Assembly: GCA_016871715.1 (NCBI GenBank) | Contig: VHCO01000004.1 | Span: 1 to 64,000, forward strand | Direction: 5' to 3' | Length of the DNA stretch: 64,000 nucleotides | Source: Verrucomicrobiota bacterium | GTDB taxonomy: Bacteria; Verrucomicrobiota; Verrucomicrobiia; Limisphaerales; J093 | Shown here: positions 7,289 through 44,900 of the stretch, piece by piece | How positions within the stretch are numbered: the first letter of the stretch is position 1 | Layout of the letters: every line of letters begins with the position of its first letter | The notes under the pieces: generated by a model | Seen by the model: only the letters and a program-made list of their open reading frames with translations | Told to the model about the DNA's origin: nothing | The model's database searches: none | Program-made: the position numbers and the translations under genes

Positions 7289-7644
7289 GGGCGAGCGGGA
7301 GTCGGCCACGGTGAGGTGAGGGTGGCGGCGCGGACTGTGCTTGCGGGCCGAGTTCCCCGCCACGGTGCTGCGGTGAGCGGCGGCGGTGACCTGCCGGACG
7401 CGCGCGTGCGAGCGCGGGGATGAAGGACAGAGGAGGGCGACCAAGGCGGAGGAGAGAGGCGGGGGATGCAAGTGGGCGACAAAGGCGTTGACGGGGTGGG
7501 AGGTCGAACTTACGGTCGGGAACGTGCTGAGCTGCTCGGATTGCCAGTCCCGCCGGATGGTCTTGTGGGTGAGGCGCGTATGCCGGGTGGCCGGGTAGGA
7601 CCCGGCGCGTCAATTCTGCCCGCGTTCGATGGCTGCGAATCGTG
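7289..7644 (+). other. Intergenic region without recognisable gene
   Basis: This 356-bp stretch before the efflux operon is purine-rich on the + strand in the middle (several GGAG/GAGG runs). I see no conserved protein, RNA gene or palindromic repeat in it. It probably holds the promoter for the efflux genes, but I cannot point to convincing hexamers. Confidence 0.4.
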
Positions 7645-8778: not shown

Positions 8779-8833
8779 AGATGAGAGCGCGGGATCGACG
8801 GCGGTGGGGAGGCCAGGGTCGAGTGCGGGTGCC

Positions 8834-11800: not shown

Positions 11801-11998
11801 ATCGGCTTTGGGGCGGGCGCGGAAAGCCGGCGGCCCATGGGCATCGCCGTGGTGGGCGGCCTGATCACGAGCACCTTTCTCACGCTCGTGATCATTCCGG
11901 TGGTGTACACCGTCTTCAGCGACGCCATGGACTGCCTGAGGCGCAAATGGCGGCACGCCACGCCCCTGGCGGAGTCCCTCGAGCCGGTTGGGGAATAG
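8834..11998 (+). CDS. RND efflux pump, HAE1-type inner membrane subunit
   Basis: Proton-driven multidrug-type efflux transporter of 1054 residues from the ATG at 8834 ('MILPRISIQRPVLTTMMSL'), which gives the usual N-terminus; an in-frame upstream start at 8804 would add ten atypical residues. It has the two large periplasmic loops and about 12 membrane helices of the AcrB family. 'ELPDIDPPIVSVSTVYPGAS' follows TM1, and TM4 carries 'IGIVVDDAIVVLENIYRH' with the paired acidic proton-relay residues. The adaptor is immediately upstream. No outer-membrane factor gene is in the cluster. It ends 8 bp before the convergent superoxide dismutase gene. Confidence 0.95.
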   Translation: MILPRISIQRPVLTTMMSLGLILFGLISLTRLPVRELPDIDPPIVSVSTVYPGASAEVIETEVTERLEEAINNIEGIKTLTSQSREQVSTITVEFNLSRDVDVAAQDVRDRVSRVRGRLPENIREPIVAKQDADANPVLWIAFNSERYSPLELTTLAERQIKNRLQTIEGVSSVMIGGEKRYAMRLWLDSDRMAAHGVTVLDVARALREQNVQLPSGRVENLERELTIFTRGELQTPAEYDALVIRNVGTRLVRLRDVGQARDGAEDMRTVARSNGRPAVFLGVVKQSKANTIEVARAVKAELAAIRLTLPPGIETAIGYDESVFVEKAIHEVWLTLAIAFVLVVLVIFVFLRNLRSTIIPAVAIPVSIVATFAVLYFMGYSVNILTMLAFVLAIGIVVDDAIVVLENIYRHIEEGMRPLPAAFKAMDEIAFAILAITFSLVAVFIPLAFQQTTTGQLFVEFAFALAGSVVVSAFVALSLSPMMAARILKPVDKERHGRLFLAFDRGFQAINRGYGRTLRWALRQRALLLSLGLAILGLTVWLGLHLEREFMPEEDKGRMFALVMTPEGATSEYTDRMLRKVEGFIQGVPETQTYAAIVAPGFGGPGRANFGVAFVTFKEDRTRSYREIVEAPGGLRTKFLGGVEGALAIIQAQKAIGRSFGAPFQLVLQSQDLDALNATATAVGHRMRLMTNVTGAPLFQNVRSSFEVNKPELRLRIDRDRAAALRVSIEDIARTLQILFGGMDLSRIKVEGKEYDVIAQLERSSRLTPQSLDRLYVRNDRGELIQLSNVVTYREGAAPSAIEHYSRLRSATLSATPVGVPLGTAMARVEALLPAELPPGFLYAWSGESRDFIDAGREIWWVFLLALVIVYMVLASQFESLVHPFTVMLAVPLAGLGAFGLLWLLDAGGKVGLLPAIPAMNLNLFSQIGLVLLLGLVTKNSILLVEFANQARARGATAHDAMLEAGQVRLRPILMTAFSTLAGILPIAIGFGAGAESRRPMGIAVVGGLITSTFLTLVIIPVVYTVFSDAMDCLRRKWRHATPLAESLEPVGE

Positions 11999-23433: not shown

Positions 23434-24936
23434 TTACAGTTTCGTCATCTGCCGGTTCGGCGCGGGTGCGGACGGCCCTGGAAAACTGAGCGTGAAGGTC
23501 GTGCCCTGGCCCTCGCGGCTCGTGACCCGGGCGCTGCCTCCGTGCAAGCGCATGATCGATTGCACGATCGCCAACCCCAACCCCGCCCCGCCCGGGTGCC
23601 GGGCATCCGCATGGTCCACGCGGTAAAACCGGTCAAAGACCTTCGACAGATGCTCCGCCGGGATCCCGGTGCCGTTGTCGCGGACGGTCAACTCGACAGC
23701 CTGGTCGGCATGCGCACACACTTCGAGCTGGATCTGTCCCTGGGCCGGCGTGTACCGGAGGGCGTTGCCGAGCAGGTTGCTCACCGCCCGGCGGAACAAC
23801 ATCGCGTCGCCTTCCACCCACGCTTCCCCAGCGCAACTGACTGCCACCCCTCGTTCGGCCGCAAGCGCCGAGTAAAACTCACGCACGGCCTCGAGTTGCG
23901 CCCGCGCATCGAAACGGACCCGTTGAATCGCCGCTTTCGGATTGTCGGCCCGGGCCATGAACAACAAGTCCTCGATCATGCGGGAGAGCCGTTGGAACTC
24001 CTCGAGGCTGGAGGCCAGCACCTGTTGGTACTCGACCGGCGTGCGGCTCCGTGCCAGCGCCACCTCGGCTTCGCCGCGCAAATTGTTGATGGGTGTCCGC
24101 AACGCGTGCGCTAAATCGCCGGAGAACTGCGACAAACGCGTGAACGAGTCCTCCAACCGGTCCAGCATCGCGTTGAAGGCGGCCACCAGATCCGCCAGTT
24201 CCGACGGCCAGTGCGCGCCCCCAATCCGCTCATAGAGATGGCTGGCCCGCACCTGCTGCGCCTGGCGGGTGATGTCTGTCAGCGGGCGCACACCCGTCCG
24301 AGCCGCCCAGGCGCCCGCCGCCGCCGCCAGCCCCAACCCCACCCCGAGCACCACCAACAATCGGCGCCGATAATCCGCCAACAAGGCCAGGTCGGTCGAG
24401 ATGTCCAGGGCCGTCTGCAACACCCGTGTCTCGGGACCTCGCCCCAGCGGTGCCCGCACGGACAGTAACAGAAAGGTCCCGTGATGCACCGCCTCCGGCA
24501 CCGCGCGGTTAGGCGCCTCGTCGCTCGCGGCTTGGGCGGCCGGGAATCGGTCGACCGGCAGCCGTTCGTTCATCCCCGGGGTTTCGAGCACCTGCCCCGT
24601 CCGCTCGTCCAGGACCCGCAGGAAGTATCGAAGCGGGCTCTCGGAGGCTTCATGCTCCACCTCGTTGGCCAACAGCTCGGTCTTTTGTGGATGGTCGCGT
24701 AACAGCAGCCGTAACACCTGCACCTTGCTGGCCAGTAGCGCGTGGTCGCGCGCGTCCAGATTGCGCTCGAGCACCCAGTACAAATAGCCGGCCGCTGGCA
24801 ACGACAAGGCCGCCGTCGTCGCCACATAGAGCACCGTGAGCCGCCGCGTGAGCGACCAGGCCCGCGTCGCACCAGCCACCGCCACCGGCCCAGGTCCAGG
24901 TCCAGGTCCGGCCCGCTCAGCGCTCCTCGAGGACAT
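23434..24936 (-). CDS. Heavy-metal-type sensor histidine kinase (CusS-like)
   Basis: Membrane sensor kinase of 500 residues. TM1 is about residues 31-53 and TM2 about 192-212, with a periplasmic domain between them. HAMP follows, then the phosphoacceptor block '[16 protein letters not shown]' with His277 (Ala replaces the usual Glu of HELRTP). The ATPase domain has '[11 protein letters not shown]' (N box), 'DNGTGIP' (G1) and '[12 protein letters not shown]' (G2). The layout matches the CusS/CopS family of copper and silver sensors. A GPGPGPGP tract lies in the N-terminal cytoplasmic tail. It overlaps the response regulator gene by 20 bp, implying coupled translation. No metal-efflux genes are adjacent, so the signal is uncertain. 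Confidence 0.93.
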
Positions 24937-25588
24937 AACCCAGGCCGCGAACGGTGTGGATCAGCTTGGCCGGAAAGGGATCGTCCACCTTCCCGCGCAA
25001 GCGCCGCACCGCGACGTCCACCACATTGGTGTCGCTGTCGAAATGCATGTCCCATACCTGCTCCGCAATCAGCGTGCGCGATAACACCTCCCCCTGCCGC
25101 CGTACCAGCAACGACAACAACGCGAACTCCTTAGGCGTCAGATCCAAGCGTTGCCCACCCCGCACTGCCCGGTGGCGCGTCACGTCCAGTTCCAGGTCCC
25201 CCACCTGCAGCGGCCCCGGCCCCCGGCCAGAGTTGCGGCGCAGCAGCGTCCGCACCCGGGCCAACAACTCGGAAAAGGCGAACGGTTTGACCAGGTAGTC
25301 GTCGGCGCCCGACTCGAGGCCTTTCACTCGATCCGGCACGCTGTCGCGCGCGGTCAGGAACAGGACCGGGCTCTCTCGGCCTGCCTGACGTAACGAGCGA
25401 AGGATCGTCCACCCATCGCAGCCCGGCAACCCCACGTCCAACACCACCAAGTCGTAGTCTTGCGTCAGAGCCAAGTGCAGCCCGTCATCGCCACGCCCCG
25501 CGGTGTCCACCACAAAACCGCTTTCCGAGAGCCCCTTGCGCAGGTACGCCGCCGTCTTGACTTCGTCTTCGACAATCAATATGCGCAT
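24917..25588 (-). CDS. OmpR-family response regulator (CusR-like)
   Basis: DNA-binding response regulator, 223 residues from the ATG at 25588 ('MRILIVEDE'); the frame runs further upstream but that part lacks homology. The receiver has the acidic pair in 'VEDE', phosphoacceptor Asp51 ('[10 protein letters not shown]') and the Lys in 'DYLVKPF'. A winged-helix C-terminal domain ends '[16 protein letters not shown]', the standard OmpR/PhoB ending. Its 3' end overlaps the cognate kinase by 20 bp. It lies 25 bp beyond the GH51 start-distal end, all on the - strand. Confidence 0.95.
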
Positions 25589-25613
25589 GGTGCGCCCCGT
25601 TGGCTCGACCGGC

Positions 25614-27998
25614 CTATTCCACCTCGAACGCAAACAGCGTCACGCTGCACGGGGCGACCGTCACGCGGTCCGTCAAGCCACTCACCGCGCCTTCTGCGAT
25701 GACCACCCGCGCCGGTTGGTCCGGATCGTTGTAGGCCTTCGGATCGCTGCCGGCGATCTCCCAGCGCGTGCCGGTCCCGGCCAACCGGGCGCCGCGCAGC
25801 GTCAGGGGGATCTCGATTGCCTCCAGCGACGCGTTGACCACCCCTAGCGTGAGCGTCTTGCGGTCGGCACTCCAGGCGGCCTGCGCATCGATCAAACCCC
25901 GGCTCTCCGTCGCCACCGGGAGCTCCCCAAAACGATGGCGATAGAGCTTCAACACCAACCCGGTCGTCTCGAACGCAGCGTTCCGGCGGCTGGTCTTGAT
26001 GCACCCAATCACGTTGACCGTTTGCGCGTAGAAGGCCGAAGCCATGATGTCGCTTTGCCGCGCGAACTCGTGCACCCCCGCCGCAATCCCGAGAGCGTCC
26101 TTGAGGAAATACCGCGTGCCCAGCTCGCCGAACGCGTGCGGCCCGTACCAGTAATTCCATTCGGTCATGGCCACTCGAATGTCCTTGCCCTTGAGTTCAG
26201 CCAAGTCCTGCCGAGCTTGACGGTGAAACTCCGCCTTGCGCCGGATGTTGTCTGGGATCTGCCGCAGGTGCGCCATGATGCCGGGCCGCTCCTGACAATA
26301 GAAATGCTCCGCGATGAAATCCATGTGCTCCGAGCAGTGCCGCAGCAGACCCGTGCTCCACGCGCCCGCGTTGCCCGACGCGATGCAGACGATCTGCGGG
26401 TCGACCTCGCGCATCTTGTCGACCACCCAGTTCTGCTTGAGCACGTAATGGTTCAACGACATGTAGCCGAGCTGCCATGAGCCGAACATCTCGTTGCCAA
26501 TCCCCCAGTACTTCACCCCAAAGGGTTGCGCCTGCCCGTTCCGCGCGCGCCAGGTCCCATAATGCGTCTCCGGCGCTCCGTTGCAGTACTCGAGCTCGGC
26601 CGCCGCGGAGTAGGCATCCCCAAAACCCGTGTTCACCGTCACCCACGGCTCGGCCCCCACCAACTCGCAAAACCGAATGAACTCGTGCAGGCCAAAGTCG
26701 TTGTGCTCGACGCCCGTCCAGGCCGGATTCGTGCGCGGCGGCCGACGATCCCGATCGCCGACCCCGTCGCGCCAGTCATAGCCACTGACGAAATTGCCTC
26801 CCGGCCAACGATAGATCGGCGCGGCGAGCTCCTTCAGTAAAGCCAGCGTGTCGGCCCGCATCCCCTCGACGTGGTCAGCCGGCATCAGCGAGACTGTCCC
26901 CACCCAGACCGTCCCAGCGCGAACCTCTAGCCCGAGCGCGGCCCGATCCGTCGTCCCGCCTGCCGTGAACCGAAACGGAAACCGGCGGTATTCGGGGCCA
27001 ATCCCTTCCAGCTTCACCACTTGGCGCGCCGCCTCCCCGTCACCCCAGCTCAACGCCACCTCGACCTGCCCAGCCTCGACTCCGGCCGATCGCAACCAGG
27101 CATAACCCACGTAGTCCTTGCCCGCGCTCACCCCCAAATCGTGCTGCTTCAGCCCCGACCCCGCCCCCACGCGGGGCGTGTGCCGACCCACAAACGGTCG
27201 TTCCAAGCTCATGGTCACTTGCTCCGGCACCCCAAGAACCTGCCAAGGCGACGCGCCCACCACCGGGAAGGCGGAGTTTTGCAGCGAACGGTACGGGCGA
27301 TACTCGGCGGTAATGGGAAAATAGAATTTCCGATCCTCGAGCATCTCCGCCCATATCCCGCCGTAAATGCAGCGGCCCAGATGCTCGATGAACTGACTGT
27401 AAATGTGGGGCGAAAGCCGTTCCCCCACGCGCCCGGCGTCGATCGCAATGCTCGGCGCGGGTACCTCTCGCAGGCTGAGCTTCTCGAGTTGGACATCGTC
27501 AAACCAAGCCTGACCCGTGGCCATGCCCCAGCCCCCCAACAAGCAATTCACCTGCACTGTGGTCTGGTCGTCGACATCGAACTCGACCTCCACCCGTGTC
27601 CAGTCCGTCGTGCCCGTGACCGGTCGCGTGGCGACCGGCTGCAGATTGTGCACATTCAAAAGCGCTCCGCGCGCATCGATGACCTTCACGTTCTCCGTCT
27701 TGATCCAGCCGGATAGCCGGTAGCGCGCAAACGAGTCCACCGGCACGGTCGTCGTCCAACCCACGTCGGCCCCGCGCTCCGACGCCAATCGCACGCTCCG
27801 CCCGCCGCTGCGACCCACCTCCGCGTGGCTGAACGTGCCCTCTCCGGCCCAGCGCTCCTGTCGCCAACCGCGCGGACGCCCGCCATCCGCTTCCTCGAAC
27901 GAGCCATTCGGCAGGAGGTTTGCGTCGCTGGTTAGGCCGCTGCCCCCCGCTACGCCTGCCACCCAAGCCACCAGTAGAGATCGTGCCAGTGATTTCAT
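25614..27998 (-). CDS. Secreted GH51 alpha-L-arabinofuranosidase
   Basis: Exported glycoside hydrolase of 794 residues that would remove alpha-L-arabinofuranosyl side chains from arabinan, arabinoxylan or similar glycans. After the signal peptide ([19 protein letters not shown]), residues 25-175 form a carbohydrate-binding-like domain ('LLPNGSFEE' to '[11 protein letters not shown]', CBM4_9 style). The GH51 barrel follows ('[19 protein letters not shown]'). The acid/base Glu503 lies in '[10 protein letters not shown]' and the nucleophile Glu613 in 'VAMTEWNYW'. A beta-sandwich ends the chain. It belongs to a - strand run with a PQQ propeller, DUF362 and GH127 genes upstream, supporting a furanoside-degrading locus. 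Confidence 0.95.
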
Positions 27999-28154
27999 GG
28001 ACGTTGAGTGTGGGGTATCGCTGTGCTCGGAACAAGCTTGCTGATGCTGCCGGCGTCTTGGCCCCTGTGCCGGTCAGAAAACCGGCGGTACGCGAACCAA
28101 CGACCTCTCGGCCGATCTGCGCGGGCGCACAGTGCCCGGCGGGAACTCGATGCG

Positions 28155-29318
28155 TCAGCCAGGGTGGGGCGCGGGCACGAAGACGTACACGGTCCGGTTC
28201 GATGCTGGCACGTAGAGGTTGCCGTCGGGGTTGAACGAAGGACGCGCTTGAAGGGAGCGCTCGGCCGCGAACAGGATCTTTCCGGCTCCCTGTTCGTCGA
28301 CGGCGTGCAGTTGGCCCAGCGGATCGGCAACGTAAGCCGTCCCGCCTTGCTCGCTGACCGCGCCAGCCAGCAGATACTCGCACCCCGAGACATACCGGCC
28401 GCGAGTTGACCCGTCGTCCGGCCGCAGGCAATGGACCGTGCCCGCCAGATCGGCGACTACCAACTCGCCGGTACGGCGCACCGCCGGAGTCGCGTGAATG
28501 GCGCAGTCAAAGGATCGGCTCCAGATCATTTGGCCGGAGGCGAAGGACCAGGCCTGCAGGAGGGCGTCCTTGTCTGCGTTCATGACCAGGTAGGCGACCC
28601 CGCGAGTCTCGTCCAGCACAGGGGCCGCGGCGACCAGTGTGCGGCGCGCCCCCCGCGGGCCTTCGGGGCGCGTGTGCAACACGGTGGCTTCGCCGCTCGA
28701 GGTCACGCGCACGAACTCGACACCGCGCTTCGCCACGGCCCGCAGGCAGTAGATCGTGCCGCGCGCATCGGCGGCGGCGGCGGCCTGCGGCGAGAACCCC
28801 GCGTCCCAGGTCGTGCGGGTTTGGCCGGTGCGGCAATCGAGGGCGTGGAACTTGCCACCCCAACTGCTGAGCACGACGAGGTTCGCTTGGGGCAGGCAGA
28901 GCAGATCCGACAAGATCCGCGGGTCGCTGGTCGTGGGGATAGCGGTGCGCCAGCGGGTGGTTCCTGTGCCGGTATCCAGCGCGTAGACCCAGCCGGCATG
29001 GGTGCCGACCAGTAGCCACGGCTCCGCTGGGTGAACCGCCGGCGTCGCCGAGATCCCGCCCTCGAGCTGAACCCGCCAGCGCAACTGGCCGGCGGCCGTG
29101 AACGCTTGGACCGCGCCTGCCAAATCGGCCACAAAAGCATTGCCCGTCTCGTCAAAGACCACCGCGGCCTGCACGGCCCCTTGCGCCGGCAGTCTATGTC
29201 GCGGCGGCCCGGCGATCGGGGCTGCCACCGCGACCGCGCTCGAGCCGCGGCGGAAGTTGTCGCCGCCGGCGGTGTGCCAGACTCTGGTTCCGGTGAGCTC
29301 GTTGGTGGGGATCGGCAT
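28155..29318 (-). CDS. PQQ-like beta-propeller protein without signal peptide
   Basis: 387-residue propeller protein from the ATG at 29318, which lies 5 bp after the stop of the DUF362 gene; the open frame extends further upstream but there it overlaps DUF362 coding sequence out of frame. Blades include 'AFVADLAGAVQAFTAAGQL', 'VYALDTGTGTTRWRT', 'KFHALDCRTGQT', 'GELVVADLAGTVHCLRPDDG' and 'YVADPLGQLHAVDEQGAG'. No signal peptide is visible (MPIPTNELTGTRVW), unlike the propeller at 308-1630, so it may be cytoplasmic or exported with a partner. Close spacing suggests cotranscription with DUF362. Function unknown. Confidence 0.82.
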   Translation of the reverse strand: MPIPTNELTGTRVWHTAGGDNFRRGSSAVAVAAPIAGPPRHRLPAQGAVQAAVVFDETGNAFVADLAGAVQAFTAAGQLRWRVQLEGGISATPAVHPAEPWLLVGTHAGWVYALDTGTGTTRWRTAIPTTSDPRILSDLLCLPQANLVVLSSWGGKFHALDCRTGQTRTTWDAGFSPQAAAAADARGTIYCLRAVAKRGVEFVRVTSSGEATVLHTRPEGPRGARRTLVAAAPVLDETRGVAYLVMNADKDALLQAWSFASGQMIWSRSFDCAIHATPAVRRTGELVVADLAGTVHCLRPDDGSTRGRYVSGCEYLLAGAVSEQGGTAYVADPLGQLHAVDEQGAGKILFAAERSLQARPSFNPDGNLYVPASNRTVYVFVPAPHPG

Positions 29319-29323
29319 GGGAG

Positions 29324-30559
29324 TTAGGCAGCGTTCCTGCGGAAGGTGGGCTGGAACTGGAACCGGGCAGACTCGAGGTCCAGCCCGGTCACCTCGATGT
29401 GGGCGAGGCGGTTTTCGCCCAAGTTTTTGCGGCGCGCCAAGGCGAGGTGGTTGGTCCCGTTGGCAAACGGCCACGTCCGATCGGCCGCGTCCGGATCGAA
29501 CCCCATGACCGCTGCCGCCACGGCGTCGGTACAGACGGCGTTGCGCCCGGCCAAGAGCAGGCCGGGCCGGGTCACGGAGACCATCGACCCGAGCCACCAA
29601 CCTTCGGCGGTCTGGATGGTGCTGATGCCGTCAATCACCACCAGGTGAACGGGAAACGCCGCGTTTAAGTCCACGATGAACCGCGGCACATTGTAACCGT
29701 GGTCGCCCGGGACGGATTTGCCGGTGAAACTGGGGACGGACGTCAGCGGCAGACGCGAGCACGCGTGCATGGTGTTGCTGCGGTAACCGCTGGCGTTTTC
29801 GTCTGGGCGATCCTCGAGGTCGTCGCCATACAGGCTGCTGGGCGGGACGCCGAACAGATTCTTCATGCCGCCGGTAATGCCCCCGGACACATGACTCTTG
29901 AGCTTCGCCAACGACACCAGGACGTCCGTGTCCACATAGGTCCGGTTGACCTCCCAACTCGACGCAAGCTCAGGCGCCCCGGGGACCTTGACCAGCGCGT
30001 AATCCTTGTGCCGCCCCCGATTGCGCGTGTTCTCGAAACGGGCGCGGCCCTGGGTGGCCTGGTCGAAGTCGGCGCGTTGGAAGCCGTACCCGGCGAAGGC
30101 CTGCGCGTCGAGCGCGCGAAACGGCAACTGATCGCAAAACACGATCTGCCGGGCCCCGTAGTCCGCCAGCAGACTGCCCAACGCCAGCGCCACTACCGGA
30201 TGCACCGTGACCGTCAGCCAGACGGGCAACCCGGACAAGTCTTCCTCCGAAGTATTCACCAGGTTGAGCTTCAAGGTGACATGTCGGTTCTTGACCAACC
30301 GGCGGACGTCTCCCAATTCGTCCAACATCCGACCTAGCACACGCCGCACCTCGGCGTACTCATAGCGCTGGCACAGCCCCAGGGCGGTGGGCGCGCGGGG
30401 TGGGCGTTGGGCGAGCGCCTCACCCGGCAGGGCTGGCGGCGCCGTTGCGCCGAGTGTCAGGCCGGCCGTAGCCGCAGTGTACTTGAGAAAATCGCGCCGG
30501 GATAGCGTGCGCCCCGGACACCGGGGGACGGTTCGGGTGGTGGCGTTGGTTCGTTGCAT
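29324..30559 (-). CDS. Tat-exported DUF362 protein
   Basis: 411-residue protein with a twin-arginine signal ('LSRRDFLKYTAATAG') followed by a DUF362 domain. Blocks 'KNRHVTLKLNLVN', 'LVSLAKLKSHVSGGITGGMK' (with 'NLFGVP' after it) and 'NAVCTDAVAAAVMGFDP' are the conserved parts of this family. DUF362 proteins are widespread in Planctomycetes and Verrucomicrobia; their reaction is not established. No CxxC ferredoxin motif is present here. The gene is 5 bp upstream of the propeller gene and downstream of GH127 on the same strand, so it may handle a product or cofactor of that locus. Confidence 0.9.
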   Translation of the reverse strand: MQRTNATTRTVPRCPGRTLSRRDFLKYTAATAGLTLGATAPPALPGEALAQRPPRAPTALGLCQRYEYAEVRRVLGRMLDELGDVRRLVKNRHVTLKLNLVNTSEEDLSGLPVWLTVTVHPVVALALGSLLADYGARQIVFCDQLPFRALDAQAFAGYGFQRADFDQATQGRARFENTRNRGRHKDYALVKVPGAPELASSWEVNRTYVDTDVLVSLAKLKSHVSGGITGGMKNLFGVPPSSLYGDDLEDRPDENASGYRSNTMHACSRLPLTSVPSFTGKSVPGDHGYNVPRFIVDLNAAFPVHLVVIDGISTIQTAEGWWLGSMVSVTRPGLLLAGRNAVCTDAVAAAVMGFDPDAADRTWPFANGTNHLALARRKNLGENRLAHIEVTGLDLESARFQFQPTFRRNAA

Positions 30560-30656
30560 GGCTGATGAGGTCTGCGGTTTAGAGCCTGATTGAAGCGTCC
30601 TCTTCGGGCAGGGCGACGCTCCTGCGGTTTTCCGCGGGGTCGAAGAGTCTTTTCAG

Positions 30657-30738
30657 GGTAGGGCGAGGCTCCTGCCGAGCCGACCCATAAGGTGAAACGG
30701 CCTGGGACGCTGTGGCTCGGCAGGAGCCTCGCCCTACC
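30657..30738. repeat. Palindromic repeat B (25-bp perfect arms)
   Basis: Arms at 30657-30681 and 30714-30738 are perfect inverted repeats of 25 bp around a 32-bp loop; the left arm reads GGTAGGGCGAGGCTCCTGCC.. A degenerate fragment (GGCAGGGCGACGCTCCTGCG) lies just before it at 30607-30626. It sits in the gap between GH127 and DUF362. I recall similar elements between genes in other Verrucomicrobia. Confidence 0.9.
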
Positions 30739-30817
30739 GGGAGGCTGTAGTTCATAGTCGTCGCCTGAGTAACAAACGCCCGCGCGCACGACCTGTCAAC
30801 CGGCGGTTGGCCCCCGA

Positions 30818-33550
30818 TCAACGTTCCCGAATCCAGACCAACGAGCGTCCGCCGCGGTTGAGCCGGGCGTAGTTGGGGATGGCCAACAACGGCGCGCCAT
30901 CGGCAAAGGCGCCTTGGATCGCCGCCACCCCATCGAGCAAGTCCGGCCGCCATTGGGTGGACAAGGCCGACGCGGGGTCGAGGATGCCCTCGAGGTCCTG
31001 ATCCACGCTCTCGAGGTTATAGAGCAGGGGACCGTAGCGCAGGGCCACGCGATCCCGGTTGGCTGCTACCCGATCGCTGGTGCGGACGCGTTGGATCGGT
31101 AAGGGCAGGGCGATCTCGATGGTGTCGCCTGGCTGCCAGGTGCGGGTGAGGATGGCGTAGCCGCGCTCGACGATCGGCGGCGCGATGCGCCTGTTGACCG
31201 CCAGCGTATCGAGGCCGTCAGCGCTCGGCGTGCCGGTGTACAAGTCGCTCACGTCCCGATCCGGCACGCGCACCTTGACCGTGAAGCGCGTGGGTTGCGC
31301 CGGTTGGATGGTGAGGGTGACGTTGCCGCTCCAGGGATAGTCGGTGCGTTGGACGATCTGCACGTCGGTGCCGGCCACATTTGGCACGGTAACCGTGCTG
31401 CCGATGAAGAGGTTCACGTAGATGGTGTCCGGGCTTTTTAGGTACATCCAGGTGGGCAAGCTTAACAGGGTGCGGGGGATGTTGCCCACGCAGCAGGGGC
31501 AACCGTGCCAGTCGTACCGCGGCCGATTCCCGTCGAGCGGGTTTTGGTAATAGAAGTTCTTGCCCGCCAGGTCCACCGAACCTAGCAAGGCGTTGTAGAG
31601 GGTTTCCTCGTACAGGTCGGCATAGCGAGCGTCTCGGTGCCACCGGTTCAGGCGATGCTGGAAGAAGACCAAACCGCAGCTCGAGCACGACTCGCAGTAA
31701 GCGTTATGGCGGAGCGAATAATCCGGCCCGAAGCCTTCCGAGGTTTCGCCGCTGCCAATCCCGCCGGTGACGTAGTACTTGCGGTGAACCAGGTTGTCCC
31801 AGATCGATTGCACGGCACTGCCGTAGTCTCGATCGCCAAACTCGAGGACGACATCGGCCATAGCGGCGTAGGAGTAGGCAGCGCGCACGGCGTGGCCCAC
31901 GGCGGTGTATTGCTGGATCGCCGGCACATGGCTCTGATCGTATTCACTGCCGTCGTCGCGGCAGTCCAACAGAAACTTCGCCAACTCGAGATACTTGCGC
32001 CCCTGGCCGGCTCCTTCGACCTCGCCCACGTACCGGCCGAAGCGGACCAGGGCCATTTCCATGGCTTGGTGGCCATCGTACCAGGGCTGCTTGGGCGCGG
32101 GACCGATGTGGTCGCACCAGCAGTCCGCCAATCGCCGAGCTGCGCGGTAGAGCCGCACATCGCGGCCCTCGGTCAGCAGATGATGGGCTATGGCCGCTTC
32201 CAAGAGGTAGCCGGCCACGTAACCCTCGTGATCTCCGCGGAGGCGGGGCGACCACCGCTCCTTGCGTTCATCCAGCGTGAAAGCGGTCTGCAGGTACCCG
32301 TCCGGTTCCTGAGCGGCGAGCACCTTCGGGATCCAGTCTTCGAGGGTCGCCTTCATTTGTTGCTGCGCCTGGCCGATCTCGGGATCGCCTTGCGGATCGA
32401 TCATGAGCGCCAGGCAGATGGCCTCGATCGTGTTATACACCCAGGCATTGGCAAACACGTAGCCCCGGTGCCGCCCGTGCGGTCGGCCCGCCAACTGATG
32501 CGCCGCCTCGAGGAAGTTGTTGATGCCCCCTTCCCTCAGCTCGGGGTCGGAGATCTTGGCGATGCAATGCGGGATCCACGCCACCATGAGCGCCTTGAGC
32601 CGGCTGCTCCACAACCGACTGTCCACCTTGAAGTGCCGCGTGTGGATCGGCTCGAGGCACTGGCCCGAAGGCGGCGCCTGCACCCGCACGCGCAGCGTGT
32701 CCGAGGCGCTGAGCGCACCGGCCTGCGCCGTGAACCGCAGCGTGTAGTCGCCCAAGTCCGCAAAGCTGGCGGTGGTCTGGGCTTGCGCGGCGGAGTCGAA
32801 CCGAACCGGGCCGGGCCCGCTTTCCTTGCTCCACTCGACGCCAGTCCCTGCGGCGGCGGGCTTGAGCGTTTTGACCTGCCCAGCCAGGAACGTCTTGCCG
32901 CCCTGCAGCACGATCCGGTCCGCGCCGGCCGTCACGGTCGGCGGGAAGTCGGGCGAGTTGCCCGAGTCGCAGACGCGCCACTCGAGCAGGCCGGTCGAGT
33001 TCTGCCCGTCCGAGTCGAACTCCAGACGGAGGCGCGAGGTGGTCACTTCCGGGAAGGTGGTGAGGTTGAACTGGTTTGGCGCCAGCCCCAAACCGCTGGC
33101 TTGGAGGACTGGGACGAAGGCCTGACCGTCCCAAGACTTCAGCCGACAGGCCCGGGGCAGTCGCACCCCGCGCGCATCGTCGAACCAGTAGACCTCGATG
33201 CGGTCGGTGGCGATCAGTTGGCTCCAATCGTACTGCACCCAGTGCGTGCCGGTCTGGGGCCAGTTGCCGTAGGCGCCGTGGCGTTGGTCATTCGAGTTCC
33301 GTGGGGTGACCCCGTCGTTCAGCGCCGCGAGTGTTTCGTGGCCGGAGACATAAGACGTCGACGCCACGGCCACCAGCGCGAGGTTCGCCGGCGGCGAATC
33401 GACCGCTGCAGGTTCTTGGGCGGCGTGTCCTCCGACGAGACAAGCCAGGAGGAGAAACGCGGTCTTGCGTGTCGACTTCGCTGCGCCGGCCGCGCCTCGC
33501 GAACCGCGGGGCGGCGGCGCCCAAGGAGTCTGCGTTGGTTTGGTGCTCAC
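30818..33550 (-). CDS. Secreted GH127 beta-L-arabinofuranosidase
   Basis: Exported glycoside hydrolase of 910 residues (GTG start at 33550; signal peptide 'TAFLLLACLVGGHA'). Residues about 55-195 form a discoidin/F5-8-like carbohydrate-binding domain, followed by an Ig-like domain to about 292. The DUF1680/GH127 catalytic domain follows. Its zinc-thiolate site is intact by comparison with HypBA1: Glu620 and Cys622 in 'YCESCSSCG', and Cys686-Cys687 in 'HGCPCCVGN', where the equivalent of Cys686 is the nucleophile. The family releases beta-L-arabinofuranose, though some relatives act on other sugars. It heads a - strand run leading to the GH51 gene. Confidence 0.92.
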   Translation of the reverse strand: MSTKPTQTPWAPPPRGSRGAAGAAKSTRKTAFLLLACLVGGHAAQEPAAVDSPPANLALVAVASTSYVSGHETLAALNDGVTPRNSNDQRHGAYGNWPQTGTHWVQYDWSQLIATDRIEVYWFDDARGVRLPRACRLKSWDGQAFVPVLQASGLGLAPNQFNLTTFPEVTTSRLRLEFDSDGQNSTGLLEWRVCDSGNSPDFPPTVTAGADRIVLQGGKTFLAGQVKTLKPAAAGTGVEWSKESGPGPVRFDSAAQAQTTASFADLGDYTLRFTAQAGALSASDTLRVRVQAPPSGQCLEPIHTRHFKVDSRLWSSRLKALMVAWIPHCIAKISDPELREGGINNFLEAAHQLAGRPHGRHRGYVFANAWVYNTIEAICLALMIDPQGDPEIGQAQQQMKATLEDWIPKVLAAQEPDGYLQTAFTLDERKERWSPRLRGDHEGYVAGYLLEAAIAHHLLTEGRDVRLYRAARRLADCWCDHIGPAPKQPWYDGHQAMEMALVRFGRYVGEVEGAGQGRKYLELAKFLLDCRDDGSEYDQSHVPAIQQYTAVGHAVRAAYSYAAMADVVLEFGDRDYGSAVQSIWDNLVHRKYYVTGGIGSGETSEGFGPDYSLRHNAYCESCSSCGLVFFQHRLNRWHRDARYADLYEETLYNALLGSVDLAGKNFYYQNPLDGNRPRYDWHGCPCCVGNIPRTLLSLPTWMYLKSPDTIYVNLFIGSTVTVPNVAGTDVQIVQRTDYPWSGNVTLTIQPAQPTRFTVKVRVPDRDVSDLYTGTPSADGLDTLAVNRRIAPPIVERGYAILTRTWQPGDTIEIALPLPIQRVRTSDRVAANRDRVALRYGPLLYNLESVDQDLEGILDPASALSTQWRPDLLDGVAAIQGAFADGAPLLAIPNYARLNRGGRSLVWIRER

Positions 33551-33687
33551 GTTGATCCGGGTTCGGTGTTCTGTAGTGTGGTTGAACGAGGCGCCAGGCT
33601 ACGCGGTCCGCCGCCCGCCGGCAATCCCGCAGGCGAACCGTTAGCGCCGGCTTAAGCTTGTGTCAGCGCGACGGACCACAAGTCGGC

Positions 33688-33714
33688 GGCAGGGCGCGCA
33701 GTCCTCCGCGCGCC
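33688..33714. repeat. Single arm of repeat A
   Basis: GGCAGGGCGCGCAGTCCTCC then GCGCGCC matches the left arm of the family A palindrome, without its right partner. It lies in the 296-bp divergent gap between GH127 and the interrupted PEP-CTERM gene; nothing else is evident there. Confidence 0.65.
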
Positions 33715-33846
33715 CTAGCGGCAAGGGGTCGTCGACACGGGGCGGACGTGGCCGTCCGCGCTCCGCCTCGGTGAGGAGCCTGGCGTTCACGCTGACCTTG
33801 ATCCTTGCTCTGGCTCGCTGATTTGTCGTAGGATGTGGGCAGGCTC

Positions 33847-34467
33847 ATGAACACGGTGTTGTGCCTGGTAGGATCGGCCTCGAGCGATCGAGGGGCGCGG
33901 GGAGTCGGCAGATCGGCCCATTGTGCAAGTGCGGTCGTTTGCGCGTGGCTTGGCGTCGCGCTGGTGGCGGGAGCTTTCGCACAAGGCACCGTGCTCTTCA
34001 GCAACTACGACCGAACGGTTCAACTGGATGCGCCGGTGACCGATTACGATGGCACGCCGCTGGCAGGCGCCGGGTTCCTGGCCCAATTGTACGGCGGGCC
34101 GACCCCCGAGAGCTTGCGCCCGGTGAGTTCGCCCACACCGTTTGCCGCGGATGGTTACTTCAGCGGCGGCCGGCAACCGATCATGGGCGTGGCGATGGGG
34201 AACATGGCGTTTGTTCAGGTCCACGCCTGGGAAGCCAGCGGGACGCTCACGTACGAGGCCGCTCTCCAGGCCGGGCGCCGGGTCGGGACGTCCAACCTCT
34301 TCTTGGTCTGGACGGGTGGGGACGGTTGAACCTGCCGTCTACCGCCGGCCAGTCTGGCTGGGCTGCAGTCCTTTCGGTTGGTGCCTGAGCCCGCGCCCGC
34401 CGCGCTGCTGGCGAGCGGCTTGCTACTGCTCGCCGGGCGTCGGGCGCGCCGCCGGCAGGGCGGCTAG
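33847..34467 (+). pseudogene. PEP-CTERM secreted protein split by in-frame TGA
   Basis: From the ATG at 33847 the frame encodes a signal peptide ('VCAWLGVALVAGAFA') and a beta-rich domain ('GTVLFSNYDRTVQLDAPV', 'GFLAQLYGGPTPESL') ending 'FLVWTGGDG', then TGA at 34327-34329. In the same frame translation resumes as 'LAGLQSFRLVPEPAPAALL' then 'ASGLLLLAGRRARRRQGG' and stops at 34465: a textbook PEP-CTERM sorting tail (PEP motif, hydrophobic helix, basic end). The domain is typical of small verrucomicrobial PEP-CTERM proteins. A single stop codon therefore separates body from tail. It could be a nonsense mutation, a sequencing error or rare readthrough; if real, the shorter product would lack its anchoring signal. 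Confidence 0.8.
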
Positions 34468-34645
34468 CCCACCGCCGCGGGTTCATTGTAGAGTTGCGGC
34501 GGTGATCGCTCTGGCGGCTTAATGGGGCGCATGACCACGGTGCAACCTCGGCGACTCCGGTTCTCGATCCTGGCTCTGGGACCATGGCTGGCGCGGTCTC
34601 CTTTTTGCAGTTTACGCGCTTGGCGGCTTGGGCATTAATCGGCGC

Positions 34646-36271
34646 ATGCAAAGGCTCTGGTTACTTTCCCTATTGGGGTGCGCGACGGCTTTTTCGGGGG
34701 TGTTGGAGGATTTGGCGCGACCGCACGAGGGCCGTTCGCGGCGGGCGACCTCGACGATGCGCGTGGGGGAGGTGCGGCGGGGCGGAGCGGAGCGCAAGTT
34801 GGATCCGAAGGCAGATCCGAAGGGCGACCTCGAGGAGGCGAGCAACTGGGACAACCACCGCGTTGCGCCTGGGGAAACGCATGTGTTGATGGCGGAGGAC
34901 GGGCCCGGCGTGATCACGCACATCTGGCTGACTTTTCTCGGACCGGAACCCCAAGCTTGGGCGCCGCAGGGCTCGGCGAACCACCAGGAGATGCTCTTGC
35001 GGATGTACTGGGACGGAGCCGAGCGGCCGGCGGTCGAGGCGCCGGTGGGGGACTTTTTCGCGAACTGTTTTGGCAAGCGCAGCGAAGTCATCAGCCTGCC
35101 CGTGGTGGTCGAGGATGCGGATTCGTACAACTGCTACTGGCGGATGCCGTTTCGGAAGTCGGCCCGCATCGAGATCGAGAACCAGAGCGCGAAGCCCATC
35201 GGCCTGCTGTACTACAACATCGATTGGATCGAGCTACCCAGCCTGCCGGAAGCCACGCCCTATTTCTATGCGCAGTACCGCCAGGAATATCCCGTGGCGC
35301 CGGGCCACGACTATGTGGTGCTCGAAACCGAGGGCAAAGGGCACTATGTGGGGACGGTGCTGGCCGTGCGGAGCCGGAGCCCGTCGTGGTTCGGCGAGGG
35401 CGACGAGAAGATCTACATCGATGGCGAGGGCAAGCCGTCGATTTGGGGCACCGGCACTGAGGATTACTTCTTGTCGGCCTGGGGCCTGAAGACGACGAGC
35501 ACGCCGTACTTCGGGACGCCTTACTTCGACCAGTGGGGCATCGTGGGGGGGCACACCAGCGCCTACCGTTGGCACCTCCACGATCCGCTCGTGTTCAACA
35601 CCGGCATTCGCGTCACCCTCGAGCATTTCGGTTGGATTTCTCCCGACGAAAACCCCGCGCAAAAGAGCAACAGTTGGAACGAGCGCCAGGACGATTTCGC
35701 CAGCGTGGCGTTCTGGTACCAGGCGGGCACGCCCACCTTCCGGGCGCGCGCCCCGAACGCCCGCGAGCGCCGCTTGCCCAGCCTCGAGCGGGTGGTGGCC
35801 TACGCGCGCGACTTTGCCGGGGCGGCCCATCACGGCGCGGGGGAAGCGGTCCCGCAGCAACTGGATCTCTACGAAGGACCGCAACTGCTCTACCGCGCTC
35901 CCGGCCCCGAGGGGGCCTGGGTCGAGATCCCGTTTCGAGTCCAGCGCAAGGAACCGCTCCGCCTCCTGCTGAACCTGACCAAGTCCTACGACTTCGGCCG
36001 CTACCAGGCCTTCCTGAACGGGGTCAAACTGGGCGGGCCGACCGACCTGTACCACGCCGAGGTGGCGAATGAAGAAAAGCACCTCCTGGACTTCTGGCCC
36101 GAGCCGGGCGAGTACACGTTGCGACTCGAGTGCGTTGGCAAGCATCCCTTGTCCCAAGGCCACTATCTCGGGATCGAGTCCGTCCGCTTGCGCGAACGGC
36201 GGCCGCGCGTGGCCGAGTACGGCCACGATCGGCAGAAGGATTGGCGGCAGAACCCGACGCTCTACCGTTGA
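34646..36271 (+). CDS. Secreted DUF2961 protein, GH172-type furanosidase
   Basis: Exported 541-residue protein; the ATG at 34646 gives a short signal peptide (MQRLWLLSLLGCATAFSG). The DUF2961 domain contains 'GPGVITHIWLTF', 'YWDGAERPAVEAPVGDFF', 'IDGEGKPSIWGTGTEDYF' and 'GHTSAYRWHLHDP'. This family is now GH172, whose characterised members act on alpha-D-fructofuranosides (difructose dianhydride I) or D-arabinofuranosides, using two glutamates; Glu272 in 'GTGTEDYF' is a candidate. A C-terminal sandwich ('YDFGRYQAFLNGVKLGGPTD') completes it. It lies near GH127 and GH51, which also act on furanosides. Substrate not fixed by sequence. Confidence 0.88.
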   Translation: MQRLWLLSLLGCATAFSGVLEDLARPHEGRSRRATSTMRVGEVRRGGAERKLDPKADPKGDLEEASNWDNHRVAPGETHVLMAEDGPGVITHIWLTFLGPEPQAWAPQGSANHQEMLLRMYWDGAERPAVEAPVGDFFANCFGKRSEVISLPVVVEDADSYNCYWRMPFRKSARIEIENQSAKPIGLLYYNIDWIELPSLPEATPYFYAQYRQEYPVAPGHDYVVLETEGKGHYVGTVLAVRSRSPSWFGEGDEKIYIDGEGKPSIWGTGTEDYFLSAWGLKTTSTPYFGTPYFDQWGIVGGHTSAYRWHLHDPLVFNTGIRVTLEHFGWISPDENPAQKSNSWNERQDDFASVAFWYQAGTPTFRARAPNARERRLPSLERVVAYARDFAGAAHHGAGEAVPQQLDLYEGPQLLYRAPGPEGAWVEIPFRVQRKEPLRLLLNLTKSYDFGRYQAFLNGVKLGGPTDLYHAEVANEEKHLLDFWPEPGEYTLRLECVGKHPLSQGHYLGIESVRLRERRPRVAEYGHDRQKDWRQNPTLYR

Positions 36272-39826: not shown

Positions 39827-40164
39827 TGCAGACGGTCGTCTATCCCGAGGTTTCATCGGTGCGCTAGCTCACGGTACGCGTTCGCTTAGTACAGTCCTGG
39901 TCCGTTTGTCCAGGGTTTTCGCCCAGGCCAGGAACGGGGCGAGCCACAATTTCCTTCCCCGCGAAGGCGCGGGGCCGTAGAACTGGCCGTCGACTCAACC
40001 ATCTGGCGCCCATCTGGCACCCAAGGGTGAAGCCTGGCCGAAGCCACTCGAGACGTCGCGCGTCGCGTTCGAGTTGGAAGCGCGATTTTGCGTCTCGGCC
40101 AGAGTGGCCGTGCGGCCTCCACCCGGGTGCGGTGCGCGGGGCCGCCGCTGAACAACCGCAAACC

Positions 40165-41037
40165 ATGACCAGCACTCGCCGCCGTTTTATGTTTCACACC
40201 GCCCGGGCCGCCGCGGTTTTGGGCCTGAGCTCCGCCTGGGCGCCGTTGTTAGCGGCTCCAGACCAACGCCGCTTCAAGGTGGGGGCCTGCGATTGGTCGA
40301 TCGGAAAGTTGGGCGACCCTGGCGCGCTCGAGGTGGCGAAGGAGATTGGCTTGGATGGGGTCCAGGTCAGCTTGGGGACAGCGGCAAACGGGATGCACCT
40401 GCGTCAGGCCGAGGTCCAGGCGCGCTACCGGGCAGCTACGGCGCGCACGGGCATAGCCACGGCCTCGCTGGCGATTGGCGAGCTGAACAACATCCCATAC
40501 AAGAGCGATCCCCGTACCATCGACTGGGTGAACGACGCGGTGACCGTGCCGGCGGCGCTCGGGTGTCGCGTCGTTCTGCTGGCCTTCTTCGGCAACGGCG
40601 ACCTTAAGGGCGACCGGGCGGGCACCGACGAGGTGGTGCGACGGCTCAAGGCGGTTGCGCCCAGGGCGGAGCAGGCGGGGGCCATCCTGGGCCTGGAATC
40701 TTGGCTCAGCGCCGAGGAACACATGGACATCATCGAGCGGGTCGGCTCGCGGGCCGTGCAGGTGTACTACGACGTGGCGAATTCGGAGAAGATGGGCTAC
40801 GACATCTGCCGGGAGATCCGCTGGCTCGGCAAACAAGGTCAGATCTGCGAGTTCCACATGAAGGAGAACGGGGCGTTGCTGGGGCAGGGCCGCGTCGATT
40901 TCCAAAAGGTTCGCGCAGCCCTCGACGACATCGGGTACGCGGGTTGGATGCAGATCGAGGGGGCGATCCCGGCGGGCGGGCAGATGCTCGAGAGTTACCG
41001 CGCCAACCAGCAGTTCTTGCGACAGACCTTCGCGTAA
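40165..41037 (+). CDS. Tat-exported TIM-barrel sugar isomerase/epimerase
   Basis: 290-residue protein of the xylose-isomerase-like TIM-barrel superfamily. The ATG at 40165 gives a twin-arginine-like signal ('TSTRRRFMFHTARAAAVLG'); earlier in-frame codons have no coding character. Conserved pieces are 'FKVGACDWSIGKLGDPGAL', 'LDGVQVSLG', 'ESWLSAEEHMDIIERVGS', 'VYYDVANSEKMGYD', 'EFHMKENG' and 'YAGWMQIEGAI', which place the metal-binding Glu, Asp and His of this fold. Members act on keto sugars or inositols; the substrate is not evident. A ROK kinase gene starts 4 bp later, suggesting joint sugar processing, though this protein is probably exported. Confidence 0.9.
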   Translation: MTSTRRRFMFHTARAAAVLGLSSAWAPLLAAPDQRRFKVGACDWSIGKLGDPGALEVAKEIGLDGVQVSLGTAANGMHLRQAEVQARYRAATARTGIATASLAIGELNNIPYKSDPRTIDWVNDAVTVPAALGCRVVLLAFFGNGDLKGDRAGTDEVVRRLKAVAPRAEQAGAILGLESWLSAEEHMDIIERVGSRAVQVYYDVANSEKMGYDICREIRWLGKQGQICEFHMKENGALLGQGRVDFQKVRAALDDIGYAGWMQIEGAIPAGGQMLESYRANQQFLRQTFA

Positions 41038-41041
41038 CCCG

Positions 41042-41968
41042 ATGAAGGCAGCGGGGCCAGCGATCGGGATCGACATCGGCGGCACGAAGCTGGCCGTAGC
41101 GCTGGTCCATCCTTCGGGTCGGATCCTGGCCCAACGCACGCTGGCGACCGAAGCCGAGCGGGGATTCGAGCGTGCGGTGGGGCGGATCGAAACGGCCATC
41201 CGAGCCGTGCTCCGCCCGACGCGCGCGGGTCGGGGCCAACTCGCGGGGATTGGCGTGGGTTGTGCCGGGCCGGTGGACCCAGCGCGGGGCTTGATCAATA
41301 ACCCCTATACCCTCGCGGGGTGGAACCAATGCGACCTCGTGACCCCCTTGCAGCGTCGGTTTGGCGTGCCGGTGTGGCTCGAGAACGACGCGGACGCGGC
41401 GGCGCTCGGGGAGTGTTTTCAAGGCGCGGGTCGCGGGTTCGATCCGGTGGTCATGCTCACCTTTGGCACCGGGGTGGGCGGCGCCGCGCTGGTCCGCGGG
41501 CAAGTCTACCGTGGTGTCCAAGGAGAACACCCCGAATTGGGCCATCTCCCCGTCAGTCCGGATGGTCCGGACTGTTACTGTGGCACGCGCGGTTGCCTCG
41601 AGTCGATGGCCTCGGGAACGGCCGTCGGCGAGGCGGGTCGCTCCTTAGGGTTCCCGGACGCTCGGGCCGTGTTCGCCGCGGCCCGGGCGGGTCATCCGGC
41701 GGCGGAGCCAATTGTCAATCGCGCCTTGGCGGCTGCGGCCACGGCGGCTTGGACGATCTGTCACACGCTGCTGCCGGCGCGCTTGGTCTTGGGGGGAGGC
41801 ATGATGGCCGAGCACTACGACCTGTTTGCCGAGGCGATACGTCATCGGTTGGCCGGGGCCACCCAGTTTCCGCGCGCGGCCGTGAGCATCGCCCCTGCAG
41901 CCCTCGGGAATGACGCTGGCCTGGTCGGAGCGGCCAGTCTGGCCTGGCGCCCCCTGATAACTTTATGA
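41042..41968 (+). CDS. ROK family sugar kinase
   Basis: Cytoplasmic ATP-dependent sugar kinase, 308 residues, probably glucokinase- or N-acylhexosamine-kinase-like. 'IGIDIGGTKLAVALV' is the N-terminal phosphate loop, 'LENDADAAALGE' carries the catalytic Asp, and 'LTFGTGVGGAALV' the second phosphate motif. The ROK zinc site is present: His in 'ELGHLPVS' and cysteines in 'CYCGTRGCLES'. It starts 4 bp after the isomerase and its stop overlaps the start of the next gene (ATGA), so translation of all three is probably coupled. Sugar specificity cannot be read from the sequence. Confidence 0.93.
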   Translation: MKAAGPAIGIDIGGTKLAVALVHPSGRILAQRTLATEAERGFERAVGRIETAIRAVLRPTRAGRGQLAGIGVGCAGPVDPARGLINNPYTLAGWNQCDLVTPLQRRFGVPVWLENDADAAALGECFQGAGRGFDPVVMLTFGTGVGGAALVRGQVYRGVQGEHPELGHLPVSPDGPDCYCGTRGCLESMASGTAVGEAGRSLGFPDARAVFAAARAGHPAAEPIVNRALAAAATAAWTICHTLLPARLVLGGGMMAEHYDLFAEAIRHRLAGATQFPRAAVSIAPAALGNDAGLVGAASLAWRPLITL

Positions 41969-44900
41969 ACATGACACTCCTCGAATCCCATGAGAACCGC
42001 CGCCCGCGGACTCTCATCCTACTGGCTACCATCTGCGTCGTGCTGCTGGCACCGCGGGGCCGTGCCTTGCCGATCGTCACCAGCGTCGTCGAGACGGGGG
42101 GCGACGGACCGCCCACCGCCAAGTTCACCGGCGAGACCTTCGATCACCCAAACCTCGGGACGGGTTTTACGGTGCCGGTCTTTGACGAGGAAGCGCCGGC
42201 GTTTACCGACCGCGCCCACCAATGGAACGGAGCCGACCCTGCCGTGCCGTTGCCGGCCTATTTGGTCGGAGGCGAGTACATCATGATTCGCAACGACAAC
42301 CGCGAGAACACCGGCTTTCAGTTGGATGTCACGCTGTCGCAACGCGCGCTGGTGTACGTGCTGGTAGATAATCGGCTCAGCGACGGTTTTAACACCGACC
42401 CGCCGGATTTCACCACCAGCATGACCTGGTTGCTGACCAGCGGCTGGGCTCCCGTGGCGACGGGCTGGAACCGGATCAGCGATCCCTTCTATCCGGATGA
42501 AGTCGGCGTGGACGAAGGGGGCGACGGGTTCGGTCCGGGGATGGGGATCAACCAATGGTCGTCGATCTACGTCAAGGAACTGCCGGCTGGCGCCTTCTCG
42601 CTGTTCCAGGCCGATAACCCGAGCCGGAACATGTACGGCGTGGTGGTCACGCCTGTCCCCGCCGAGCAACCGCCCAAGATCGTGAACCTGAGCCCAGCCG
42701 ATAGAACGCATTTTCAGAGTGCCGCCAGCGCCATCACCTTCAACGTCACGACCGTCACCCCCAACCAGGTTCCGACCGCCGAGATCCGCCTAGTTCTTAA
42801 CGGCGCCGATGTCACCAGCCGCCTGGCTATGGCCGGCAGCGCCACCGATCGCCAGGTGACGTGGCCCGGTCCGCTGACGGCCAACACCTTCTACACCGGG
42901 CTCATCACCGCGAAAGACAACGCCGGTCGCACCACCACCAAAGCCTGGAGCTTCGATACCGTCAACCCCACCACGGCTTTGGTCATCGAGGCAGAGGACT
43001 ACAACTACGCCAACGCCCAGTGCAACTTCGACGGGACGGTGCCGGTGCCGCCCGTTACGGGCGGGTTGTTACTCGACAATCCCGCACCCGTCAACGCCGA
43101 CTTCCCGACTCCAGACAGCTACGCCAACCGAGTGGGGATGCTCGGGGTGGACTACGGAGATCAGGCGGCGACGGCGGGCAGCCTGCAGAACAACGTCTAC
43201 CGCCTGTGCGACCTAGTCGGTACCCAACGCGGCACCGACTTCTTGCGCCAGAAGTTCGCGGACACTGGCACGACGGACTATCAGGTCCACCAGGTGGCCG
43301 CGGGCGAGTGGCTCAACTACACGCGCACCTTCGCCGCCGGCCCGTATGAGGTCTACCTGCGGCTCAACGGAACCGGCACACCGAAGCTGCGCTTGGACCT
43401 GGTGACCGGCGATCGCACGCGGGCAAACCCAAGCTCATTCCTGCTGGGCTTTTTCGAGGCTGCCTCGGGTCTGGGCTACCGCTACGTGCGGCTGACGGAT
43501 TTGGGCGGGCAACCGCTGGTTTTGGGGTTGACCGGCGTGCAAACGGTGCGGTTAACCGCCTTGGAGGCCACCAGCAGTCTGAACCTCAACTACCTGCTGT
43601 TCGTGCCCTCGACCGACCCGGCGTCGTTGCTCGGCCCGGTGGTCGCCTCGACGGTGCCGATCCCCGGCACGGTCAACGCCCCCTCGGCGCGGCCGATCGA
43701 GGTCAACATCGTCAATCGCACGACCGCCGTCGATCCCGCCAGCATCCTACTCGAGTTGGACGGCGCCAATGTGACCGGCGCCAGTAGCGTCACCCCTGGC
43801 CCAACCGGAGTCACCGTGCGCTATCAGCCTCCCGTGCCGTTCCCCCTGGCTTCAAGCCACACGGCTAAGGTCAGCTTCCGCGACACCGCCGGCAACCCCG
43901 TCACCACCGAGTGGTCGTTCACCGTCACCACCGATGAGGAACTGCCCACGTTGGTGGGCACCCGACCGGTCCTGGATCCCGGCACGAAGATCCTCACATT
44001 GGTGGTCACCTTTTCCGAGCCGATGGATCCGCGTTCGCTCCTAGAGCGGACTCATTACACCGCCAATAAAGGCCTGACCTTCACCGCCGCAGGGCCCGGA
44101 CCGGACTCGAGCAGCGTGGTTTTGACGGGAACAGGCGCAACCTCAGGGAGATCGTACGTGCTGACGGTCAACGAGGTCCGTGACGCCGCCGGCAACGCCA
44201 TTGCCTCTAACTCGACCATTCGCTTCAATCCCTCGCCTTTCGAGCAAGACACCCAGGGTTTCCTGGTCGTCGAAGCCGAGAGCTTTTTCCTCAACACCCC
44301 AGGCACGGGCAGTTCACCCGAGATCTGGACGTTCGTCACCGACAAGGCGGGTTACTCGGGCCGGGGCGCCATGCAGACCCTGCCCGATAACAGTGGGACT
44401 AGCCCCAGCCCGGACCAACTCGCCCAGTCGCCGCGCCTGGATTACCCGGTGAAGTTCGTGCGCACAGGCACGCACTATATTTGGATCCGCGGCAGCGCAG
44501 GCACCGGCGGACCCACGGGCACCTCGGGCAACAGCGACTCGCTCCACTTCGGCATGGATCAGCAGCACCTCATGGCGGTGGCCGGTCTCAACAACCCGAA
44601 CTTCGTCTGGTCGCGCACCGTCCAGTCGTCCCTGGGCAACAACTTCCTCGAGGTGTTCGCTCCCGGCGAGACCACCCTCCAGCTCTGGATGCGCGAGGAT
44701 GGCACCTACGCGGACAAGATCCTGTTAACCACCGACCCCGCCTACGTCCCGAGCGGACTCGGGCCGGTCGAGAGCCGGCGAGTGGGGGACCCCTTTGCGC
44801 CGAACATTCAAATCGGCAGTCCGACCGACGGCCAGATCTTCGGACTGGGTGAACCCATCACGCTCACGGCTACCGTGACCGATCCGGACAGCACTTCGGC

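Follow-up and report, generated by a model that had tools for sequence, protein, structure and literature searches.

A verrucomicrobial neighbourhood of GH51, GH127 and GH172 genes with a plausible L-arabinofuranoside pair

We analysed a 64,000 nt stretch of DNA (the window) on contig C4 of a Verrucomicrobiota assembly of 8.58 Mb in 554 contigs, in which genes of the glycoside hydrolase families GH51, GH127 and GH172 lie within 11 kb. The region is probably a neighbourhood of separately inherited genes, comprising a plausible GH127–GH51 pair for L-arabinofuranosides and genes unrelated to it. The analysis established gene identities, catalytic residues, folds and synteny, and its main value is as a caution against taking a chance neighbourhood for a polysaccharide locus.

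Gene content and layout of the region

The genes concerned, with the evidence for each, are:

24917..25591, minus strand: CusR-type response regulator (NCBIfam, neighbour analysis)
25614..27998, minus strand: GH51 (Pfam, PDB sequence search)
28155..29321, minus strand: PQQ/BamB-like beta-propeller protein (Pfam; adjacency to DUF362 in relatives)
29324..30559, minus strand: DUF362 protein with Tat signal (Pfam; pair kept in relatives)
30818..33550, minus strand: GH127 (Pfam, PDB search, alignment)
33835..34329, plus strand: PEP-CTERM-like ORF (translation, sequence)
34646..36271, plus strand: GH172 (DUF2961) (Pfam, PDB search, alignment, AlphaFold model, fold search)
35777..36268, plus strand: GH172 C-terminal beta-domain (profile search, fold search)

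Pfam and PDB sequence searches confirmed the three families named in the initial annotation, all as intact genes, and Pfam likewise confirmed that a DUF362 and a PQQ propeller gene lie between GH127 and GH51. The signal peptides assigned to all three enzymes are plausible, as judged by eye. The lack of a SusC/SusD pair, from which a different mode of uptake had been deduced, agrees with the window ORFs scanned and implies nothing unusual. GH51, PQQ, DUF362 and GH127 all lie on the minus strand and GH172 is divergent on the plus strand. For the PQQ gene, the mechanically called ORF spans 28155-29600 and the true start is near 29320. The window genes scanned around the trio have mixed functions (amino-acid permeases, RND efflux pump, CusRS, superoxide dismutase, UvrB, tRNA synthetase). 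Over the whole genome, we counted 8 DUF2961, 9 GH127 and 5 Alpha-L-AF_C loci. Scanning for promoters and terminators returned no more than shuffled sequence did. The possibility that one divergent promoter serves both GH127 and GH172 was rejected because the PEP-CTERM-like ORF, identified by translation and reading of the sequence, separates the two genes.

An in-frame TGA (34327-34329) ends this ORF, and beyond the stop its reading frame goes on to about 34467 with a VPEP tail (VPEP...RRARRRQGG) that is normal in other respects; either the gene is broken or the assembly is in error. Further along the plus strand, at 40027-45936, a xylose-isomerase-like TIM barrel, a ROK family protein and an Ig-rich protein of 1323 aa, whose C-terminal domain is GH115, stand in a row, possibly another sugar-related gene set.

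The GH127 and GH51 proteins

The GH127 protein (910 aa) begins with a discoidin-like and a weak PKD-like region, followed by the catalytic, middle and C-terminal GH127 domains (PF07944, E 1.1e-72). Its best PDB matches, and nearest solved enzymes, were 6ex6 (E 2e-99) and 4qjy (E 8e-95); HypBA1 and 5mqo are more distant, the bit score being higher with 4qjy than with 5mqo. The zinc-thiolate residues had been read as intact, and alignment supports this: E605, E620, C622, C686 and C687 form the Zn-(Cys)3-Glu site and acid/base Glu, are invariant in 7 orthologues and are equivalent to E322, E338, C340, C417 and C418 of HypBA1, for which these residues have been named (PMC8106489). The three domains, the zinc site and the acid/base Glu are common to the beta-L-arabinofuranosidases 4qjy and HypBA1 (3wkw) (PMC8106489), from which the window protein differs by an N-terminal extension of about 290 residues. 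Against the aceric acid hydrolase model it scored 266 bits, far below the cut-off of 950, and a profile comparison of GH127 with GH172 yielded nothing. By sequence, it is plausibly a beta-L-arabinofuranosidase-type protein.

The GH51 protein (794 aa) has a signal peptide (by eye), an N-terminal CBM_4_9, an ASD1/GH51 barrel and an Alpha-L-AF_C domain (Pfam; E 2.6e-15 for the last). The best PDB match was the alpha-L-arabinofuranosidase 3s2c (E 9e-73). The motifs GIGNE (GIGNEMFG) and MTEWNYW align with characterised enzymes, so both the acid/base and the nucleophile Glu are present, as had been noted before. The barrel, the C-terminal domain and both motifs are common to the exo-alpha-L-arabinofuranosidases 3s2c and 3ug3. 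The window protein has two additions: the CBM_4_9 and, inserted after the first strand and before the barrel, a stretch without a match (query 219-372). Family GH51 includes activities besides alpha-L-arabinofuranosidase; these similarities make an alpha-L-arabinofuranosidase-type protein plausible. Orthologues in genomes of the same family are 70-76% identical. The CusR-type gene begins 22 bp after GH51, and the neighbour analysis of relatives did not find such a regulator as a conserved GH51 partner. It is part of a CusRS-type two-component system (23434-25591) directly downstream of GH51; a CusBA-like RND efflux pump lies at 7642-11998, 12 kb beyond that system.

GH127 and GH51 would probably act as secreted exo-enzymes that remove beta- and alpha-linked L-arabinofuranose, respectively, from plant-type arabinans or glycoproteins. 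At best, they plausibly represent a known kind of arabinose-releasing pair, and the pairing is a loose one.

Linkage of the three families in relatives

The comparison covered 14 genomes of the window's family and 293 of its order, the window's own genome included; its genus is represented by this genome only. Orthologues of GH172, GH127 and GH51 were found in 37, 36 and 27 of the order genomes, respectively. Outside the window, GH172 and GH127 orthologues never occurred on one contig in these 293 genomes, and in the closed one-contig genome G109 the two are 1.95 Mb apart. GH172 and GH51 orthologues shared a contig once, at a distance of 31 kb. Within the 14 family genomes, all four gene types have orthologues, which are on different contigs or far apart. 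The neighbour analysis gave no shared neighbour for GH172 across 55 loci, nor for GH51 across 8 loci (9 GH127 loci were also covered), and GH172 was absent from the GH127-anchored and GH51-anchored loci examined in relatives. Co-occurrence of the three genes in relatives, on which the initial annotation had staked its reading, thus did not hold for GH172 (293 genomes; 55 loci).

We also counted pairs of any paralogues separated by no more than 8.5 kb in the 14 family genomes and compared them with random expectation, which is somewhat high because contig breaks were left out of the model. GH172–GH127 pairs (1 observed vs 2.1 expected) and GH172–GH51 pairs (1 vs 1.2) were at chance level, and the sole GH172 pair in each count was the window itself. 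Some GH172 proximity could be missed because most relatives are fragmented assemblies; 19 GH172 loci had flanks of at least 5 kb on both sides and 12 had 8 kb. By a rough random-placement estimate, this exact trio would fall within 11 kb in one genome with a probability of about 0.002, a low value that counts against a neighbourhood of separately inherited genes but makes no correction for the trio having been chosen after the fact.

GH127–GH51 pairs were enriched in the same count (7 observed vs 1.2 expected). An absence of this link had been read from family-level data and was reversed by the order-level orthologue searches, in which GH127 and GH51 orthologues lay within 12 kb in two genomes of two other families (G096 and G052), that is, in 2 of the 11 other genomes with both. 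The genome G095 carries a tight overlapping run GH51-GH127-GH127(DUF6805 type)-GH51 (L180:4836-14630), by its sequence a clear candidate for an L-arabinofuranosidase operon. In G058, a single ORF of 1579 aa (L175:7206-11945) encodes a DUF6805-type GH127 fused with a CBM_4_9-GH51 similar to the window's. In these operon and fusion cases, one side is formed by a different paralogue of GH51 or GH127. In G006 and G007, the GH127 orthologue is the first gene of a run that continues with an S9 peptidase, an uncharacterised protein and a second GH127. In most relatives the GH51 and GH127 orthologues are unlinked, and few neighbours were common to 18 GH127 and 16 GH51 loci. Since genes of this kind tend to stay close together in this lineage, sometimes in operons or fused, the closeness of GH127 and GH51 in the window is plausibly functional. 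For work on L-arabinofuranoside enzymes, the links and the fusion in relatives offer a better start than the window.

The only firmly conserved pair in the neighbour analysis was DUF362 (first) with the PQQ propeller gene (second), which was kept in the family genomes having a DUF362 orthologue. No linkage of DUF362 to sugar enzymes was seen in relatives, and the two genes would be an unrelated conserved pair sitting between GH127 and GH51. In two genomes (G001 and G003), the pair lies 12-15 kb from a GH127 orthologue.

The initial annotation had proposed one furanoside-degrading set of three, with a target containing alpha- and beta-L-arabinofuranose plus D-fructo- or D-arabinofuranose. A co-regulated locus whose three enzymes act together on such a glycan would fit their physical closeness in this genome, the intact active sites in all three and the existence, on contig C149 of this assembly, of a second GH172–GH127 pair, made up of distant paralogues with about 9 kb between them. 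It is opposed by the lack of GH172–GH127 orthologue co-occurrence in the 292 other order genomes, by the 55 GH172 loci without a conserved neighbour, and by the position of GH172 on the opposite strand with a gene in between. The known D-arabinan-degradation cluster consists of GH172, GH183 and GH116. There is no GH183 (DUF4185) near the window GH172, and the one match in the genome is sub-threshold and on another contig (C123), so a D-arabinan partner is missing. On this balance we consider the co-regulated locus very improbable. Literature searches on GH127, GH51 and GH172 together turned up CAZyme surveys only. Of the proposed set, the GH172 part is contradicted by the missing co-occurrence and the GH127–GH51 part is supported by the enrichment and by the cases in G096/G052, G095 and G058. 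With GH172 dropping out, nothing supports the three-sugar target beyond ordinary L-arabinofuranosides.

The opposite reading, that all three are bystanders and GH127 and GH51 are also close by chance in an enzyme-rich genome, draws on the low proportion of order genomes with nearby orthologues, on the scarcity of common neighbours at their loci and on the conserved DUF362-PQQ pair, which splits GH127 from GH51 with gaps of 258 bp and 156 bp. The family-wide enrichment, the linked orthologues in two other families and the run and fusion described above argue against it, and we regard it as unlikely. We therefore favour separately inherited genes that include a plausible GH127–GH51 pair; GH172 would be a separately transcribed secreted retaining furanosidase with its own orthologous group, beside GH127 only in this genome.

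The GH172 protein and its C-terminal domain

The GH172 protein has 541 aa from the ATG at 34646, or 547 aa from a TTG at 34628. It matched PF11175 (E 1.5e-83), with 4kq7 as the best PDB match (E 9e-54). Alignment identified equivalents of W267, E270, E291, D292 and W298 of alphaFFase1, whose catalytic-site residues have been named (PMC8605356); they vary little or not at all among 34 orthologues. The position of alphaFFase1 N272 is Asp in all 34. Numbered from the ATG, the acid/base is E251, the nucleophile E272 and the specificity position G280. The AlphaFold model, whose mean pLDDT is 78.5 and whose 270-291 loop is of low confidence, has a double jelly-roll core and matched 8ic8, 4kq7, 8ah3 and 7v1v in a fold search. 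The structural check of DUF2961 against characterised GH172 enzymes thus agreed in fold and Glu pair, the 270-291 loop being weak.

A quick tree with several long branches placed the window GH172 group (34 rows) in its own clade (SH-aLRT 99), separate from 7v1v, 4kq7/8ah3 and 8ic8 and hence from any member with tested furanosidase activity. The window protein shares its fold and the equivalents of E270/E291, D292, W267 and W298 with alphaFFase1 (7v1v), ExoMA1 (8ic8) and DgGH172c (8ah3). It differs from them in lying in a clade without a characterised member and outside any D-arabinan cluster, and in carrying a signal peptide (by eye) and an extra C-terminal beta-domain. Because of its residues, the enzyme should cleave alpha-D-furanosides. 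Gly299 in alphaFFase1 versus Asn253 in ExoMA1 separates fructofuranose from arabinofuranose specificity, the Asn blocking fructofuranose (PMC10509167). Since the Gly299 position is Gly in all 34 orthologues, alpha-D-fructofuranose is a possible substrate.

No Pfam model matches the C-terminal domain. At positions 394-499, the GH172-group profile matched 6f2p (E 3.4e-8), the C-terminal domain of a Paenibacillus xanthan lyase, and 7ehg (E 4.9e-7), the xanthan-binding module MiXBM; the fold search gave a target TM of 0.73-0.79 for 7ehg. Identity to these modules is about 20%, and the window domain is fused to GH172, not to a xanthanase or lyase. Fusions of DUF2961 to jelly-roll carbohydrate-binding modules have been reported in general (PMC8812541). 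Profile and model together indicate a probable MiXBM-like candidate module, previously unannotated, which may hold the enzyme on a polysaccharide. Only tentatively do we suggest that the group comprises stand-alone secreted alpha-D-furanosidases whose C-terminal module targets acidic exopolysaccharide and whose specificity (invariant Gly) is undescribed in GH172; we think this rather doubtful as a whole. As a widespread uncharacterised clade with a probable carbohydrate-binding module, the group is the useful part of the region.

GH172 orthologues 51-82% identical occur across Verrucomicrobiota, Planctomycetota and Armatimonadota, and in one record each under the labels Acidobacteria, Sumerlaeia and Rikenellaceae, and their neighbours vary from locus to locus; this wide spread may reflect either transfer between phyla or misbinned MAGs. 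The GH172 orthologue in G003 (C1:121956-123567) was matched in two pieces, the second half at lower identity, possibly owing to a frame break.
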